Shown: one piece after another, positions 2,556-31,130 of the stretch
How the letters are laid out: each line of letters begins with the position of its first letter
Numbering within the stretch: position 1 is the first letter of the stretch
IMG/VR virus record: IMGVR_UViG_3300032086_002943
Coordinates: 1 to 31,130 of that record
Reading direction: 5' to 3' (one strand)
Source: a virus
Length of the DNA stretch: 31,130 nt
Program-made: the position numbers and the translations under genes
Notes under the pieces: generated by a model
Database searches by the model: none
What the model was told of the DNA's origin: nothing
The model's input: the letters and a program-made list of their open reading frames with translations, nothing else

Positions 2556-4010
2556 ATGGCAAGGCTAACAGAGCAAGACAAAATCCCCCCTAAATCTGCG
2601 CAATCGGCAGCTAAAAAAGTTCTTGAATGGAAAGAAAAGCACGGAGACGAAGTAAAAGGAATGACCCAAACTGGCTGGACAAGAGCAAGACAAATTGCAA
2701 GCGGCGACCCCTTAAGCCTAGATACAATTAAAAGAATGTCACAATTTAGCAGACACGAAAAAAACAAAACAATCAACCCAAAATTTAAAGATGAGCCCTG
2801 GAGAGATAATGGCTATGTTGCTTGGCTAGGCTGGGGCGGTGATTCTGCTATTCTTACTTGGTCAAAAAGAATCATTGAAAAAGAAACGAAAGAAGAAAAC
2901 TCAATTAAAACAAACGCAATCACTCAAAACTTAACGGCAAAATCCTATAAAACAAGGTTTTTAGAAGCAGGGGTAGTAAACTACCCAGAACAGAATCAAA
3001 TGGTTTACATATCACCAGACAACTTGCCTATGATAGCGCAAAAATTCAAAGGCTGTAAAATAGTAATAGAACACAAAGAAGTATCAAAAGAGCAAGCACA
3101 ACAAGAAATAGTTGGTTATGTTAGCAATATATATATGGAAGACGGCTGGGCGTGGGCTGATTTTACAGTTCACTCACAAGAAGCCATTGATGCCATTAAT
3201 CAAGGTTTCAGTACAAGTTGCGCTTATAGTGCGGTCATGAAAAAAGAGGGCGGTATTAAAAACGCCGTTCAATATGATGACGAAGTTATAGATATTAGAG
3301 AAGATGATGTAATTACACATATAGCTCTAGTGCCTAATCCTCGTTATGATGATTCAATTATTCTTGAAAATTCTATTAACAACAAAATAAAAAATAAAAT
3401 CATGAATATTTTTAAATTTAAATCAGAAAAAACAGATTCTAAAGAACTTACTCTAGAAAATAGCCTATTTGAAATTGACGGCGAAGAAATGCCAGTATCT
3501 GAAATGATTTCTTATTATAAAAACGCAATGGCAGAAAAGAAAGCAAAAGAGGAAGAGGAAAAAGCTAATAAATGTAAATACGCTAATGGCGATGATAAAA
3601 TTGATATTGACGGCGAAGAAATGACTATTAGTGAATTAGCTAATTTTTACAAGAAAAACAAGAAGAAAAACGAAGAAGACAAAAAAGAAAATGAAGAAGA
3701 GAAAAAAGAGAATGAGGACAAAGAGGAAGACAAAAAAGAGAATGAGGACAAAGAGGAAGACAAAAAAGAGAATGAGGAAATGAAAAAAGAGGACAAAAAA
3801 GAAAATGAAGACAAGGAAGAGGACAAAAAAGAAAACGAAGAAGAAGAGAAAAAAGGAAATACTATGAAAAATTCTATTGAGAATGGCAGAGGTGACGATG
3901 TTAATTTAAATAGAATTAAGTATGAAAATGGAAATTCTAACCTTAACAAGCCTAAAAGAATTAGTTTATCTGAAATGCTTGAAAGAGGTCAGAATATGTT
4001 TAGCAAATAA
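2556..4010 (+). CDS. Prohead protease-like DUF2213 protein fused to a charged scaffold-like tail
   Basis: 484 residues in three parts. Residues 1-110 resemble a small N-terminal phage domain with K/R-rich helices, an RH pair and a WLGWGG motif. Residues about 125-275 match DUF2213: a metal- or protease-like core with VIEHK, GYVSNIY, FSTSCAYSAV and HIALVPNPRYDDS, as in prohead proteases. From residue 283 to the end the chain is lysine/glutamate-rich with a repeated motif IDGEEM(P/T)(V/I)SE (near 308 and 350) and a 10-residue repeat ENEDKEEDKK, as expected of an assembly scaffold. It precedes the decoration and capsid genes. The C-terminal part may also be made separately from internal ATGs at 3402 or 3864. 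Confidence 0.82.
   Translation: MARLTEQDKIPPKSAQSAAKKVLEWKEKHGDEVKGMTQTGWTRARQIASGDPLSLDTIKRMSQFSRHEKNKTINPKFKDEPWRDNGYVAWLGWGGDSAILTWSKRIIEKETKEENSIKTNAITQNLTAKSYKTRFLEAGVVNYPEQNQMVYISPDNLPMIAQKFKGCKIVIEHKEVSKEQAQQEIVGYVSNIYMEDGWAWADFTVHSQEAIDAINQGFSTSCAYSAVMKKEGGIKNAVQYDDEVIDIREDDVITHIALVPNPRYDDSIILENSINNKIKNKIMNIFKFKSEKTDSKELTLENSLFEIDGEEMPVSEMISYYKNAMAEKKAKEEEEKANKCKYANGDDKIDIDGEEMTISELANFYKKNKKKNEEDKKENEEEKKENEDKEEDKKENEDKEEDKKENEEMKKEDKKENEDKEEDKKENEEEEKKGNTMKNSIENGRGDDVNLNRIKYENGNSNLNKPKRISLSEMLERGQNMFSK
3402..4010 (+). other. Possible nested in-frame scaffold gene (internal start)
   Basis: An in-frame ATG (codon 283 of the DUF2213 gene) is preceded by ACAAAATAAAAAATAAAATC, very like the leaders of ordinary genes here, and opens the scaffold-like half beginning MNIFKFKSEK. 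It would give a 202-residue product, comparable to lambda C/Nu3, where a scaffold is encoded within the protease gene. A second in-frame ATG at 3864 has AAAGGA six bases upstream and would give 48 residues. This is inferred from sequence layout only. Confidence 0.35.
3708..3845 (+). repeat. 30-base tandem repeat encoding ENEDKEEDKK
   Basis: Two perfect 30-base copies at 3708-3737 and 3738-3767, followed by diverged copies to about 3845. The strand is almost pure purine. At the protein level it makes a long charged helix or disordered linker. Copy number is likely to vary between relatives through slippage. Confidence 0.75.
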
Positions 4011-7738: not shown

Positions 7739-9214
7739 ATGTCTATACCTATTCAAAATATCATTAATGTTTCAGTTACAGGAACTCCAGCTGGCCTGCC
7801 TGCTGCTAATGTAAATAGTGTTGCAATATTTACTACTGAAACTCCTAGTAACATTGACGAATTTAATACTTATGTTACAGCCTCAGCGGTTGAAACTGAC
7901 TATGGCAGCAATAGCGTTACTGCTCAAATGGCAAACAATATTTTTGCACAATCACCGAACATTTTAACAGGCGATGGCCGCCTCGTTGTTATACCTTTAA
8001 TAAATGCAATTAGCGCAATAGAAGGTATTTATGAAAGTACAGATATTACGGCCAATTTATCAAACTTACAAGCTGTTGCTGATGGCGATATTAGGGTTGT
8101 TTTAAATGGCAATAATATTGATCTAACAGGCCTAAATTTCACTAGTGCAAGTTCTTTAGATGATGTCGCAACAATCTTACAAAGAAAATTGACTGATGTT
8201 ATAGTAACTGCAAAAACTACTGGCTTTGATCTGGCTTCTAAAAAGGTTGGCGCTTCTTCTTCTGTTGACTTAGTACAGTTGCCTGCTGGTTCTGGAACTG
8301 ATTTAAGCGTTGCATCATTATTTAATGTAGCGGCTGGAACTGCAACAAGTGGCGCAGACTCACAAGGCGAAACTATATCAGAAGCTATACTAAGAACTGA
8401 AGAGCAAGTAAACTATACAGGACTTATAACAAATCTAGACTTAGAGGATACAGCTATTTCTGCGGTTGCGGCTACTGTTCAAACTAGAAATATGATTTTC
8501 TTAGCCCATGTATGCAGTACGGAAGATTTAGAGCCTACTACTGGTATTGCTTCAATAATTAAAGATGCTACACAAACTAAAACAAGAATTTTATTTTATT
8601 CAGTTAGTCAAGAGTCAGCAAACTTAATGAAAGCGTCTTATTTAGGCAGAGCATTTAGCGTAAATTTCAGCGGTTCTAATACCTCTCAAACTATGCAATT
8701 AAAAGCTCTTGCAAATGTATTGCCAGATCCAGCAATTAATCAAACTATATTTGATAAAGCAGAAACTGCTGGTGTTGATTATTATGGTTCTATTGAAGGC
8801 TTGCCAGTTGTTATTTCAAATGGCGCTAATAAATTCTTTGATTCTGTTTATAATTCTATATGGATTAAATTAGCGGTTGAAGTTGCAGGATTTAATTTCT
8901 TAAAACAAACTAATACAAAAAGGCCACAAACACCAGAGTCAATGACAGCCTATAAAGCAGCTCTTTCTCAACCATTAATACAAGGCGTAAATGCTGGGGT
9001 TATTGCTCCTGGAACTTGGAATGGCGATACTTTTGGCAATCAACAAGATTTCTTAAGAAATATAGAAGATAATGGCTATTATATTTATAGCTTGCCTATT
9101 GCGCAACAAGCGCAAGCGGAAAGAGAAGCTAGAGAAGCTCCAATAGCGCAAATTGCAACTAAAGAAGGTGGAGCGTTTCACTCTTCAAATATTATTATTA
9201 ATATAGAGGCTTAA
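7739..9214 (+). CDS. Contractile tail sheath protein, DUF3383 family
   Basis: 491 residues, the usual size for DUF3383. The start IPIQNIINVSVTGTPAGLPA is a typical opening of the family, followed by NVNSVAIFTTETP and YGSNSVTAQMANNIFAQSPN. The C-terminal part shows GVDYYGSIEGLPVVISNGAN and IWIKLAVEVAGFNFLKQT, and near the end GVIAPGTWNG. The inserted region at residues ~105-215, with many Ser/Ala/Asp, resembles an extra surface domain. The sheath contracts to drive the tube through the envelope. It is followed by the tube gene at 9240, the standard order. Confidence 0.9.
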   Translation: MSIPIQNIINVSVTGTPAGLPAANVNSVAIFTTETPSNIDEFNTYVTASAVETDYGSNSVTAQMANNIFAQSPNILTGDGRLVVIPLINAISAIEGIYESTDITANLSNLQAVADGDIRVVLNGNNIDLTGLNFTSASSLDDVATILQRKLTDVIVTAKTTGFDLASKKVGASSSVDLVQLPAGSGTDLSVASLFNVAAGTATSGADSQGETISEAILRTEEQVNYTGLITNLDLEDTAISAVAATVQTRNMIFLAHVCSTEDLEPTTGIASIIKDATQTKTRILFYSVSQESANLMKASYLGRAFSVNFSGSNTSQTMQLKALANVLPDPAINQTIFDKAETAGVDYYGSIEGLPVVISNGANKFFDSVYNSIWIKLAVEVAGFNFLKQTNTKRPQTPESMTAYKAALSQPLIQGVNAGVIAPGTWNGDTFGNQQDFLRNIEDNGYYIYSLPIAQQAQAEREAREAPIAQIATKEGGAFHSSNIIINIEA

Positions 9215-9239
9215 TTATTAACTTTAAATAAAATATAAA

Positions 9240-9689
9240 ATGACAATAGCATTAACAGGAAATGACTCAATCATAATTGACGGCTTGCCTTTGGTTGACT
9301 TAGCTAATGGCGATGTTGGAACTCTAACCTTTCCAAATGATATAACTTCAGCAACAACTGGTAAAAATGGTAATTCTATAATTGCCCTTAATGAAACTGG
9401 CAAGATTGCAGAATTAAGCATAAGAGTTTTAAGAGGTTCAAGCGATGATAAAACTTTAAATTCAAAGTTTAAAACTATGGAAGCTGATTTGCCTTCTTTT
9501 ACTTTATTGACTGGCTCAATAGTTAAAAGAATTGGCGATGGTATTTCAAATGTTGTAGACGATACTTACGCTCTATCAGGTGGCACTTTCTCAAAAAGAG
9601 TTGAAACAACCTCTAATGTAGAAGGCGATATTGAACAAGGCGTATCAGTTTATAATATCAGATTTACTAACTCATCTAGAAACTTATAA
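9240..9689 (+). CDS. Tail tube protein, DUF3277 family
   Basis: 149 residues, typical length. The segments LTGNDSIIIDGLPLVDLANG, GDVGTLTFPND, KNGNSIIALNETG, then SIRVLRGSSDDKTLNSKF follow the DUF3277 pattern (G-x-D-x-I-x-I, ND, 'K.GN.I.A.NE.G', R-x-x-G-S-x-D). The protein builds the inner tail tube around which DUF3383 sheath subunits pack. The stop TAA shares one base with the ATG of the next gene. Confidence 0.88.
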   Translation: MTIALTGNDSIIIDGLPLVDLANGDVGTLTFPNDITSATTGKNGNSIIALNETGKIAELSIRVLRGSSDDKTLNSKFKTMEADLPSFTLLTGSIVKRIGDGISNVVDDTYALSGGTFSKRVETTSNVEGDIEQGVSVYNIRFTNSSRNL

Positions 9690-12383: not shown

Positions 12384-12453
12384 TTTATAAAGATTTAAAT
12401 TAATAAAAATTTTATTAAAAATTAAAAAAATTTAAAAATCAAGTAAAATAATT

Positions 12454-12480
12454 AAAAAAAAGTAAAAAAATTTTACATTT
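12454..12480 (+). promoter_or_regulatory. AT-rich leader with short hairpin before the baseplate operon
   Basis: An A-run, then GTAAAA-AAA-TTTTAC (12462-12476, a perfect 6-bp stem with 3-nt loop), then ATTT-ATG. The elements repeat those at 2527-2555. A TAAAAT at 12444-12449 is a possible -10, without a clear -35. Divergent transcription starts from this 97-base gap. Confidence 0.4.
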
Positions 12481-27314: not shown

Positions 27315-27995
27315 ATGATACGAGAAAAAAAAGGATTTATATTCTACAAGTCTTTTTACGAAGCAATAAAAGAACTTTCCAACGAGCAACAATTAAAACT
27401 CTATCAAGCAATTTTTGAGTATTCTTTTGAAGAAAAAAATAAAAAACTCGAAGGAATTTCAAAAAGTATCTTTACATTAATAAAACCTCAACTAGAAGCA
27501 AATCATAGAAAGTTTTTAAACGGCTGCAAAGGTGCAGAGCATGGAAACAAAGGGGCGGAGCATGGAAAAAAAGGGGGCAGACCTAGAAATGAAAACCCCC
27601 CAGAAAACCCCCCTAATGATGAAGCAAAAAACCCCCCAAAAAACCCCCCCAAAGATAAAGTAAAAGATAAAGATAAAGATAAAGATAAAAAAACTAAAGC
27701 AAAAAAAGATTTTTTTGATTTAGATGTTCCTGATTATGTAAATAAAGAAATTTTAAAAGACTTTATTGATACAAGAAAAAACTCAAGAAGCCCAATGAAT
27801 AAACAGGCTTTTAAGCTATTAATAAAAAAGATTAAAGATTTTAAGGAGCAAGGACAGGATATTGATAAATGCTTAGAAGAGGCAATATTAAGCAACTGGA
27901 AGTCAATATACCCATTAAAAGAAAGCAGGCAATCAAAGCCACCGATAAATATTAACACTAAAGAATACAACTATGGAACAAGCGGTAAATTTTAA
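27315..27995 (+). CDS. Phage replication initiator-like protein (DUF6291-type N-terminus)
   Basis: 226 residues. The N-terminal ~85 residues match DUF6291 (FIFYKSFYEAIKELSNEQQL, YQAIFEYSFE, LIKPQLEANHRKFLNGCKG). A basic linker follows (KGAEHGNKGAEHGKKGGRPR and NPP repeats and KD repeats, residues ~73-135). The C-terminal ~90 residues (VNKEILKDFIDTRKNSRSPM; AFKLLIKKIKDFKEQGQD; ILSNWKSIYPLK) are the pattern of phage O-like replication initiator C-termini, which recruit the helicase loader. It is translated just before the helicase loader, overlapping by 23 bases. An AGGA lies only 2 bases before the ATG. Confidence 0.78.
   Translation: MIREKKGFIFYKSFYEAIKELSNEQQLKLYQAIFEYSFEEKNKKLEGISKSIFTLIKPQLEANHRKFLNGCKGAEHGNKGAEHGKKGGRPRNENPPENPPNDEAKNPPKNPPKDKVKDKDKDKDKKTKAKKDFFDLDVPDYVNKEILKDFIDTRKNSRSPMNKQAFKLLIKKIKDFKEQGQDIDKCLEEAILSNWKSIYPLKESRQSKPPININTKEYNYGTSGKF
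27531..27691 (+). other. Origin-like repeat block inside the initiator gene
   Basis: Two 21-base near-repeats (27531-27551, 27552-27572, sharing GAGCATGGAAA) are followed by four C-runs of 6-7 bases (27596-27601, 27608-27613, 27632-27637, 27644-27650; spacing 12, 24, 12) and then an AT-rich repeat AAAGAT (27651-27691). Iterons inside an O-like gene followed by an AT-rich stretch is the lambda origin layout. The G-rich complementary strand could form a quadruplex. Coding needs (Asn-Pro-Pro repeats) could explain part of it. Confidence 0.4.
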
Positions 27996-28755
27996 TATAG
28001 AACAAAAAGAAGTAATTTATAATTGCGAGATACACGGAGAGCAAAAAAACATTTTAACTGGTCTTAATGGCAAGTTTTCAAATCCTTATTGCGAGATATG
28101 CCTTGAAGAGAAAAAAAACCAAGAAAAGGAGCTGGAAGAACAGCAAAAAAAAATAGAAGAGGAAAGGAAAAGAGAGATTATAAAACAAAGCAGTTTAATA
28201 AACTCACAAATACCACCACGCTTTTTAAAAGCCAGTTTTGATAATTATAAAACCACCACAAAAGAACAGGGTAATGCTAAAAAGATTTGTCTTGATTATG
28301 CTAGCAATTTTGAAAAAAGATTAGAAGCAGGGACAAGCCTTGTATTTGTAGGAACTTATGGAGCAGGTAAGACACATCTTGCTTGCTCAATAGCTCAAGA
28401 AATTATGAGGAAGGGTTATAGCTCGCTTTATGCAAACACTAGCAAAGCATTAAGAAGAGTTAAAGACACTTGGGGCGGAGGCGGCGAAAGAGAGCAAGAA
28501 GCAATGAATTATTTTATCAATCCTGATTTATTAATACTTGATGAAATAGGACTGCAACATGGATCAGAGGCAGAAAAAATAATCTTATTTGAAATATTAA
28601 ATGAAAGATATATGCAATGCAAACCTACAATTTTAATCAGTAATCTAGATATTAAAGACTTAAAAGAATATATTACGGAAAGAGTTATTGACAGAATGAG
28701 AGAAGGCGGAGGGCAAAAAATTGTCTTTAATTGGGAAAGCAACAGGGGGCAGTAA
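27973..28755 (+). CDS. DnaC-type helicase loader (AAA+ ATPase)
   Basis: 260 residues. N-terminal zinc-binding pattern Cys18-x2-His21 ... Cys40-x2-Cys43, a charged helix (residues 45-72), then the AAA+ core: Walker A GTYGAGKT (127-134), Walker B LLILDEIG (186-193), sensor LISN (221-224) and the C-terminal RVIDRMREGG. Matches the DnaC/IstB-like loader proteins that follow initiator genes in phages. It brings host replicative helicase to the origin. ATG lies inside the preceding gene; its stop overlaps the methylase start. Confidence 0.88.
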   Translation: MEQAVNFNIEQKEVIYNCEIHGEQKNILTGLNGKFSNPYCEICLEEKKNQEKELEEQQKKIEEERKREIIKQSSLINSQIPPRFLKASFDNYKTTTKEQGNAKKICLDYASNFEKRLEAGTSLVFVGTYGAGKTHLACSIAQEIMRKGYSSLYANTSKALRRVKDTWGGGGEREQEAMNYFINPDLLILDEIGLQHGSEAEKIILFEILNERYMQCKPTILISNLDIKDLKEYITERVIDRMREGGGQKIVFNWESNRGQ

Positions 28756-29726
28756 TGATAAATAGAGATTTATTTGGACTTCCAATAATACCGCAAGATA
28801 TTAAAAACTTAAGAATGCCTTATATGGGATCTAAAAATAAAATCGCTGTTGACTTAATAAAAAAAATGCTAGAAGTAAAACCTAATGCAAAATATTTTTT
28901 TGATCTTTGCGGTGGTGGTGGTTCAATGTCTTTTACTGCTTCACAAATAGGGCTAAAAACTCACTACAACGAATTACAAACAAGCTTAGTTAAATTTATA
29001 GATTATATCTTTAATAGGCTTGAAAATGGCTTAAAAGGGCAATATGGATTATTTCCAGATGATTTTTATAATTTTATAGATAGAGATGAGTTTATGAAGT
29101 TAAAAAATGAAGATAGTATAAAAGGGCAATTTGCTAGAATATGTTATTCTTTTGGCAATAATCAGAAAGGTTATTTATTTGGAGATATAGAAAAAACAAG
29201 ACATTTAGCTCATGATATAATAATGTTTAGATGTAAAAAGTCTTTGAAAGAGTTTAATAAGCTAAACAAAGTTAATTATGCAATTAGTAATGCTAAAACT
29301 TGGAATGAAAGAAGGTTGCATCATAAAGCTGAATGGCGTCAACATATGAAAATAAAAGATTGCCCAAAACTTGAACTTTTACAAAATATGGAAGGACTGC
29401 AACGACTGAAACAACTGGAACAACTGCAACCTATATTTACAACCTCTAATCTATCGTATAAAGAAGTTAAAATCAATACCCCTATTGAAGAAACTATAAT
29501 TTATTTAGATCCGCCATATAGAAATACTGGCAAATATATTGAGGGTAAAGACTTTAATTATAAAGAATTAGATCAATGGTTTTTAGATAATAAATATACT
29601 TGTTTTATGAGTGAATATAATGCACCGCATGAAGTAATATTTGAGATAGATAAATTAAGTTTATTGAACCCAAAAGAAAAAAAGGAAATAATGCAAGAAA
29701 AATTATACTGGAACAAAAAATTATAA
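28755..29726 (+). CDS. D12-class DNA adenine (N6) methyltransferase
   Basis: 323 residues. The start at 28755 shares one base with the loader's TAA stop and follows GGGGG; an in-frame ATG at 28731 inside the previous gene is less likely. The motif order is MPYMGSKNKIA (AdoMet-binding entrance), DLCGGGGSMSF (motif I, ~50-60), and YLDPPYRNTGKY (motif IV DPPY, ~250-262), typical of Dam-like enzymes. The middle carries a Leu/Gln-rich segment (GLQRLKQLEQLQ) from a 9-base tandem repeat. It probably methylates phage DNA to evade restriction; target site not visible. Confidence 0.85.
   Translation: MINRDLFGLPIIPQDIKNLRMPYMGSKNKIAVDLIKKMLEVKPNAKYFFDLCGGGGSMSFTASQIGLKTHYNELQTSLVKFIDYIFNRLENGLKGQYGLFPDDFYNFIDRDEFMKLKNEDSIKGQFARICYSFGNNQKGYLFGDIEKTRHLAHDIIMFRCKKSLKEFNKLNKVNYAISNAKTWNERRLHHKAEWRQHMKIKDCPKLELLQNMEGLQRLKQLEQLQPIFTTSNLSYKEVKINTPIEETIIYLDPPYRNTGKYIEGKDFNYKELDQWFLDNKYTCFMSEYNAPHEVIFEIDKLSLLNPKEKKEIMQEKLYWNKKL
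29395..29430 (+). repeat. 9-base tandem repeat in the adenine methylase
   Basis: Four consecutive 9-base units of form (G/A)ACTG(C/A/G)AAC encoding the Leu/Gln run. It lies between motifs I and IV, in the region where D12 methylases differ. From memory, other phage D12 methylases carry similar Leu/Gln repeats there. Confidence 0.65.
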
Positions 29727-29808: not shown

Positions 29809-29960
29809 TTTTAAAAGATTTGATATGCAAGAAATGCCACCATATCTGGAAAGCAATTTGCGAAGAAAACAAAATAAAAGAAATGAAATGCAACAATGAT
29901 AAATGCAATGAAACTGGATCAGTAATACCATTTTTACTGCATGGGAAAAAAGGTTATTAA
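29805..29960 (+). CDS. Small zinc-ribbon protein (51 residues)
   Basis: ILKDLICKKCHHIWKAICEE then KIKEMKCNNDKCNETGSVIP: five cysteines, with CKKC and CNNDKC as two knuckles of a zinc ribbon (CxxC...CxxxxC). Common small phage proteins of this type may bind nucleic acid or support a neighbour. Starts at ATGA overlap with the mini peptide; ends inside the first copy of the 31-base direct repeat. Confidence 0.6.
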   Translation: MILKDLICKKCHHIWKAICEENKIKEMKCNNDKCNETGSVIPFLLHGKKGY

Positions 29961-31014
29961 TCAATTAAATAAATAAAATTATGAAAGTATTATCTTTATT
30001 TGATGGAATATCAGGAGCAAGGCAAGCATTAAAAGAATTAGGTATTGATTGCGAGTATTATGCAAGCGAGATTGACAAATATGCAATACAGGTTGCTAAA
30101 ACTAACCACCCTGATATTGTGCATATTGGAGATGTAAAAGGTATTGCAATTTATAATGACTGGGGTGATACTAGAGCATTTAGAGTTAATGAAGGCTGCC
30201 CTTTTACTGCTTATGATCAAGATGTTTCAGAAATAGATTTGCTTATAGGTGGTTCACCCTGTCAAGATTTATCAATAGCTAAAAAAGATAGAAAAGGATT
30301 AGATGGCGACAGATCAAGCCTATTTTATGAATACTTAAGAATATTAAATGAGGCTAAACCTAAATACTTTATACTAGAAAATGTTGCTAGTATGAGTAAA
30401 GCAAGTAAAGAGCTAATCACAAAAGAATTATTTGATATAGAGCCTATAATGATTAATAGTGCTTTATTAACTGCTCAACAACGCAAGAGGCTTTACTGGG
30501 TCGGCAAGTTAGTTGATGGCAAATATAGGCAAGTAAAGATAGAGCAACCAGAAGATCAAGAAATTTATTTAAAAGACATTATAGAAGATGGGGTTACTGA
30601 TCGCGATAAATCATATTGCATTGATGCCAATTATCACAAGGGAGGTAATTTAAAAAGTTATTTTAAAAAAGGCAGAAGGCAGTTAGTTTTTAATAAACCA
30701 TTAAGAGTAGGACATTTTAACAAAGGCGGACAAGGAGATAGAGTGTATTCTCAAGATGGTAGAACAGAACAGCGACTTGAAACTAGCTATTCAGAAAAAG
30801 CAAACTCCTTAACTACGGTGCAAAAAGACAGCATGCTTTTAAATGATTATAAAATTAGAAAACTAACCCCTACTGAATGTTGCAGACTTCAAGGCTTCCC
30901 TGACAATTATGTGTCAATGGTTAGCAATACACAAGGTTATAAAGCGCTTGGCAATAGCTTTACAGTGCCAGTAATTAAACATATTATTAATCAATTAAAT
31001 AAATAAAATTATGA
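29954..31014 (+). repeat. 31-base perfect direct repeat bracketing the cytosine methylase gene
   Basis: Copies at 29954-29984 and 30984-31014 are identical, the first at the end of the zinc-ribbon gene through ATGA, the second at the end of the methylase gene through the next ATGA. The unit between copies is exactly the methylase gene with one leader. The second copy also encodes the methylase C-terminus (INQLNK and stop). Confidence 0.85.
29981..31006 (+). CDS. C5-cytosine DNA methyltransferase
   Basis: 341 residues, complete. Motif I VLSLFDGISGARQAL, motif IV GGSPCQDLS with catalytic Cys94, motif VI FILENVASM, motif VIII QQRKRLYWVG, motif IX RKLTPTECCRLQGFPD and motif X ALGNSFTVPV are all in order, with the target-recognition region at about 180-290. 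This is a typical phage 5mC methylase; no restriction partner is nearby, so it likely protects phage DNA. It stands between two 31-base direct repeats. Confidence 0.93.
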   Translation: MKVLSLFDGISGARQALKELGIDCEYYASEIDKYAIQVAKTNHPDIVHIGDVKGIAIYNDWGDTRAFRVNEGCPFTAYDQDVSEIDLLIGGSPCQDLSIAKKDRKGLDGDRSSLFYEYLRILNEAKPKYFILENVASMSKASKELITKELFDIEPIMINSALLTAQQRKRLYWVGKLVDGKYRQVKIEQPEDQEIYLKDIIEDGVTDRDKSYCIDANYHKGGNLKSYFKKGRRQLVFNKPLRVGHFNKGGQGDRVYSQDGRTEQRLETSYSEKANSLTTVQKDSMLLNDYKIRKLTPTECCRLQGFPDNYVSMVSNTQGYKALGNSFTVPVIKHIINQLNK

Positions 31015-31130
31015 CAAAATTAACACAAGAAGAAATTTTGGAGGCTCACAAGCTTAGAATTGAAAGAGCAGAACAAGGCCACAAACAAAGATTGAAGCTA
31101 GGAATTAACGCAGAGCAAAGCGAACAATCT
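31011..31130 (+). CDS. Partial gene, runs off the right edge
   Basis: The first 40 residues are visible: TKLTQEEILEAHKLRIERAE then QGHKQRLKLGINAEQSEQS. Charged and helical; not recognised. It has the same leader as the cytosine methylase (second copy of the direct repeat). Confidence 0.6.
   Translation, partial: MTKLTQEEILEAHKLRIERAEQGHKQRLKLGINAEQSEQS

Follow-up and report, generated by a model that had tools for sequence, protein, structure and literature searches.

A candidate replication origin of C-run iterons within the linker of a phage DUF6291 initiator gene

The window analysed here, the whole of a 31,130-base virus sequence that encodes phage head, tail-sheath and replication proteins, carries within its DUF6291 gene four runs of six or seven C that are constrained at the DNA level; in the related genes that we examined such runs have a common position beside simple repeats and a length that follows the number of heptads in the preceding stretch of protein. 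Our working hypothesis is that the block is a phage replication origin that lies, as in lambda O, inside the gene of its initiator, in the linker. The AACCCCCC runs would be iterons bound by copies of the initiator, the bound initiator would melt the AAAGAT repeats next to them, and the replicative helicase would then be delivered by the DnaC-like loader that the following gene encodes (Table 1). The C-run would be recognized by the short glycine-rich tail that follows the N-terminal domain, with the AT-hook-like GGRP motif probably seated in the A-rich flank while every GxxxGxK heptad before it extends the G:C stretch that is read by about 2 bp, hence a run length of 2 x (heptads + 1). We put the probability of this explanation as a whole, an iteron origin in the initiator gene with a tail that reads the C-run at about 2 bp per heptad, at roughly two in three. 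That the initiator gene contains an origin-like array of iterons is strongly supported, though not proven, by the sequence comparisons described below, from which we infer binding, melting, loading, use as an origin and the physical mode of reading.

Table 1. Features of the candidate origin and the adjoining genes (positions in the window)
Feature	Position	Strand	Basis
DUF6291 replication-initiator gene, 226 aa (predicted)	27315..27995	+	PF19808 E 5.7e-23; PHROG_678 E 9.5e-19
N-terminal DUF6291 domain and long helix into tail, residues 1-72	27315..27530	+	AlphaFold
Heptad 1, GAEHGNK, residues 73-79	27531..27551	+	sequence; free third codon positions across relatives
Heptad 2, GAEHGKK, residues 80-86	27552..27572	+	sequence; free third codon positions across relatives
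GGRP motif, AT-hook-like, residues 87-90	27573..27584	+	sequence; common to three initiator types
Putative iteron 1, AACCCCCC	27594..27601	+	sequence; synonymous redraw
Putative iteron 2, AACCCCCC	27606..27613	+	sequence; synonymous redraw
Putative iteron 3, AACCCCCC	27630..27637	+	sequence; synonymous redraw
Putative iteron 4, AACCCCCCC (closest relative: C5)	27642..27650	+	sequence; synonymous redraw
AAAGAT simple repeats, candidate unwinding element	27651..27709	+	83% A+T
C-terminal domain	27710..27929	+	unrelated domain in its place in L052, the closest relative
DnaC-like helicase loader gene	27973..28755	+	phrog_50 E 8e-77; PF01695 IstB-like ATPase E 1.7e-21

The initiator gene and its C-run array

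The DUF6291 gene product scores 81.3 bits with the PF19808 profile over residues 7-91, above the curated cut-off of 27.2, and its linker and C-terminal half (residues 57-212) match PHROG_678, 'replication initiation O-like'. AlphaFold predicts helices at residues 12-19, 23-39 and 47-75, with pLDDT above 90 at about residues 11-70; both here and in a second family of such genes a long helix runs into the tail, which is itself modelled with low confidence. Foldseek and VIA-align comparisons of the DUF6291 model returned no believable fold, and the model of the second family is weakly like winged-helix regulators (best E 0.014). DUF6291 is named nowhere, and thus has no described function, in the literature searched, a body lacking most subscription journals; replication initiation is now a likely function for it. 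The end of the gene is overlapped by the DnaC-like helicase loader gene.

The four C-runs start at 27596, 27608 and 27632 (C6) and at 27644 (C7), a spacing of 12, 24 and 12; the AACCCCCC runs, 12 bp apart, have no dyad symmetry. The window is C-poor (13.5% C), and in its remainder C6 occurs just twice and G7 once, always as single runs. CCC accounts for 5 of the 15 proline codons in the initiator gene versus 14 of 227 in the other genes counted. When synonymous codons were drawn 200,000 times from the usage of the window with the peptide held fixed, the linker gave on average 0.058 C6 runs and in no draw four, a result on which we reject chance or codon bias as the source of the C-runs. Behind them lies the AAAGAT block proper (27651-27689), part of an A+T-rich stretch that directly adjoins the array, as in lambda. 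An earlier note on this DNA had pointed to these spaced runs with AAAGAT behind them, to the rarity of CCC elsewhere and to DNA-level selection, all of which the counts and the redraw bear out; its proposal of an origin inside the initiator gene agrees with the iteron-like array now placed within the DUF6291 coding sequence.

The two 21-base repeats (27527-27568, 90% alike), which that note had also read as iteron-like, are a different matter. They encode GAEHGxK heptads, a peptide that is constant across initiator types while the choice of codons for Gly, Ala, Glu and Lys is free; compared with two-heptad tails from other initiator types, the window uses the identical codon at only 85 of 249 same-residue positions (34%). 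Because the heptads keep their peptide and the C-runs their length, we assign the 21-base repeats to the protein and the role of iterons to the C-runs; repeats with such free codons are not supported as iterons. A phmmer search of PDB sequences with the 41-residue glycine-rich tail, a weak query, gave no match, nor did tblastn of the heptads alone or blastn of the motif against phage and plasmid records, where the low-complexity filter is the probable cause.

The only close relative of the window that was found (IMG/VR 3300024581_002496, listed as both L170 and L052) shows about 85% DNA identity around the initiator gene. Synonymous differences affect 1 of 43 same-residue codons in 27564-27707 and 16 of 73 upstream (Fisher p = 0.003). 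Five residues of the block have changed, yet the C-runs are intact but for the fourth, which has become C5 through a P-to-R change, and the AAAGAT stretch is the same up to 27707. Taken by itself, the pair could also reflect recent recombination of the block. The swap of the C-terminal domain in the relative occurs right after the block, with flanks that are again about 85% identical.

C-runs and heptads across initiator genes

A viral search with the pattern AAAACCCCCCNNAAAACCCCCC found seven stretches at G+C contents from 0.29 to 0.65, read in three frames (NPPENPP, KTPLKTPL and KPPLKPP); all but one of the seven fall in initiator linkers. The pattern AACCCCCCTTNNAACCCCCC gave 25 viral matches, most of them in initiator linkers and most in genes of DUF6291 or of the PHROG 'replisome organizer', 'primosomal' and 'replication initiation' families, compared with 3 viral matches and none in initiators for a flank-swapped control; one group of the 25 (the L062 group) carries the motif on the opposite strand, as G-runs on the coding strand. 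Genome contigs scanned with the C6 pattern yielded 6 matches, of which only L082 has a clear initiator-like linker. In order to avoid selection on the motif, sets of 80 second-family and 80 DUF6291 members (the latter including the known close relative) were fetched by protein; a first search for relatives, biased by its own KDKDKDKD pattern, was left out of the statistics. Among the 80 second-family members, the stretch just after the N-domain has about 40 times the density of C6/G6 runs that other parts have (0.49 versus about 0.01 per 100 bp), and members without C6 runs have in the same place a AAGGTTAACCTT-like array followed by TTC repeats. In the protein-fetched initiator genes the runs stand in front of simple repeats, and synonymous redraw gave an expectation of 2.0 C6 and 4.1 C4 runs where 52 and 61, respectively, were observed. 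In the corresponding linker of relatives, C6 runs occur in every codon phase and on both strands, and encode NPP, TPL, KPPL or KGGL. Run length is thus constant while phase, strand and peptide vary, which is the persistence under protein change that had been suggested as a check, and a single DNA stretch would serve in every frame as both origin and coding linker. At two further loci (L061 and L075), AACCCCCCTTTTAACCCCCCTTTTAAG with ATAGAA repeats behind it is not part of any long open frame; this may be a non-coding version of the origin.

With a GGRP tail, the iteron is AACC where there is no heptad, AACCCC with one heptad and AACCCCCC with two, spaced 11 bp apart with no or one heptad and 12, 24 or 36 with two. 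DUF6291 tails without GGRP mostly have A[A/G]GC-type iterons (140 versus 25 AACC, at 35 loci), and one such gene (L289), the tail of which is GGYKGKGVKKPR, carries a further type of C-run iteron in the form of ATACCCCC(C)T repeats. We scored loci with a repeated run length, taken from both motif-agnostic sets and from those found by the heptad peptide; seven further loci in which no run length occurred twice were left unscored. At all 100 scorable loci, which are related to each other, the length equals 2(heptads + 1), with 70 C2, 14 C4 and 16 C6, and it does so in three initiator types, namely DUF6291, the PHROG_13246 type and L273, the N-terminal part of which matches neither in Pfam. The agreement was 98 of 100 before the heptad counts of L091, L092 and L100, two of them scorable, were raised by eye to make up for a first regular expression that was too strict. 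Two held-out loci, one in a bacterial genome (L287) and one on a Bacteroides finegoldii plasmid where it adjoins dnaB (L293), each combine one heptad with C4. Moreover, in a supported clade of near-identical N-domains tail and iteron differ together: L196, L197 and L199 have one heptad and C4, L216 and L242 have GGRP and C2, and L204, L211, L213, L215 and L222 have no GGRP. Such genes amount to natural, ready-made swap experiments. The correlation between heptad count and run length is very strong in the sets examined, and suggests that the tail reads the run.

The rule is not universal, since C6 lineages without heptads and C3 iterons exist. Two lineages (L054, L056 and L057; L062, L070, L071, L077 and L078), both selected by the C6 pattern, combine C6 with GGRP and no heptad, and so there are other routes to C6; outside the main sets, heptad-less tails give C2 or C3. 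C3 is found beside several heptad-less GGRP tails, many of which have the form RNKxNGxKGGRP. Tails of this form at L037, L041, L044, L046 and L260 accompany AACCC iterons, perhaps a further step in the rule. An extra set, confined to one order of the class to which the Clostridia MAG genome belongs, contains no heptad tails and so tests heptad-less tails only; its iterons are C2 or C3 and never C4 or longer. No three-heptad tail was found on which the prediction of C8 could be tried. The best trees need 13 changes in DUF6291 (one heptad) and 6 in the second family (two heptads), their forks being weakly supported such that well-supported branches force only 2 changes per family.

Alternative explanations

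The main rival is inheritance as a cassette: an iteron origin without a code, in which the N-domain or another protein binds the C-runs and heptads are linked to run length because both move together between phages. Being adjacent in the DNA, heptads and iterons would become associated by cassette transfer as well; a span of about 120 bp takes in both tail and iterons, just after the block the C-terminal domain has been swapped, and close N-domains carry different combinations of tail and linker. We consider this explanation unlikely, while giving it real weight, as the rule holds in three initiator types and run length is exact despite varying frame, spacing and peptide. The heptad codons of the other types agree with those of the window at no better than 34%, which argues against recent DNA transfer between types. 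A low-complexity linker produced by slippage and codon bias, with no function in the DNA, is very improbable: AAAGAT and TTC repeats do vary in copy number like microsatellites, and the AAAGAT part alone could still be such a product, but the runs are of equal length across different genes, frames and strands, are in excess of the codon redraw and at 11-bp spacing break the reading frame.

The complement of the window has four G6-7 tracts, and four runs at 11-bp intervals are common in the C4 class, so that a G-quadruplex (or i-motif) at the origin, a structure that the earlier note had raised for the complement strand, deserves mention. It does not serve as a unifying explanation, because many relatives have runs in both orientations and the length falls to C4 and C2, with CC at the homologous positions in most relatives; four same-strand G-tracts are accordingly not conserved, and the middle loop in the window would be 18 nt. 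The mixed orientation led us to reject it as the main function, and we regard any such role as highly doubtful. Least probable of all is a role of the C-rich, G-poor stretch in RNA, for example as a Rho-binding (rut) site in the transcript, to which the spaced C-runs on the coding strand of the window would be suited, but not the G-runs on the coding strand of the L062 group or the mixed runs of other relatives.

Related systems and neighbouring features

The preferred reading, an iteron origin read by the initiator tail, has its nearest parallel in the lambda O and Stx phage origins, which lie in the middle of the initiator gene and consist of iterons followed by A+T-rich DNA, with the helicase-loader gene next (PMC5043065, PMC7466680). 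Order and neighbours match ori-lambda, whereas the N-domain does not, Pfam listing DUF6291 only and no lambda O; the iterons here are C-runs at 11-12 bp without a dyad rather than 19-bp inverted repeats, and their length varies with the protein repeats. In iteron plasmids (RepE, RepA and similar), too, an array of initiator sites spaced at close to the helical repeat adjoins A+T-rich DNA, but the initiator differs; here the origin would lie within the coding linker of the initiator and the sites are short C-runs. The RAG1 nonamer-binding domain contacts the minor groove of the nonamer with a GGRPR AT-hook-like motif beside helices (PMC6941560), and the nonamer consensus, ACAAAAACC, is an A-tract plus CC (PMC2666730). 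The GGRP class here has AAAACC-like sites; the resemblance is an analogy only; the weak phmmer query found no sequence relation, and RAG1 has no heptad repeats. By that analogy, GGRP could be an anchor in the A-rich flank from which the heptads extend along the G:C pairs.

How long a stretch of nucleic acid TALE, PUF and zinc-finger proteins read is set by how many repeats the protein has. The units here differ in being short glycine-rich heptads, each apparently worth about 2 bp of G:C and lengthening a run of one base type only. Neither C-run iterons nor a heptad code is described in the literature searched, again without most subscription journals. On balance we favour the view that G-x-x-x-G-x-K heptads and GGRP form a new class of modular DNA recognition, reading G:C runs at 2 bp per heptad, and that phages retune origin and initiator together by gaining or losing heptads. 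If the heptad rule reflects binding, this would be a very small modular DNA-reading device. Candidate origins become readable from sequence in many uncultured phages.

Some other features of the window may be recorded. Genes for D12-type adenine and cytosine C5 DNA methyltransferases (28731-29726 and 29981-31006) directly follow the loader gene. An A+T-rich intergenic repeat is present in several copies in the window and in L052 (26015-26153, about 9192-9249, 12393-12462, 29954-29986 and 30984-31038 in the window). Purine-rich repeats at 3651-3858 encode a stretch rich in Lys, Glu, Asp and Asn within the open frame 2556-4010.
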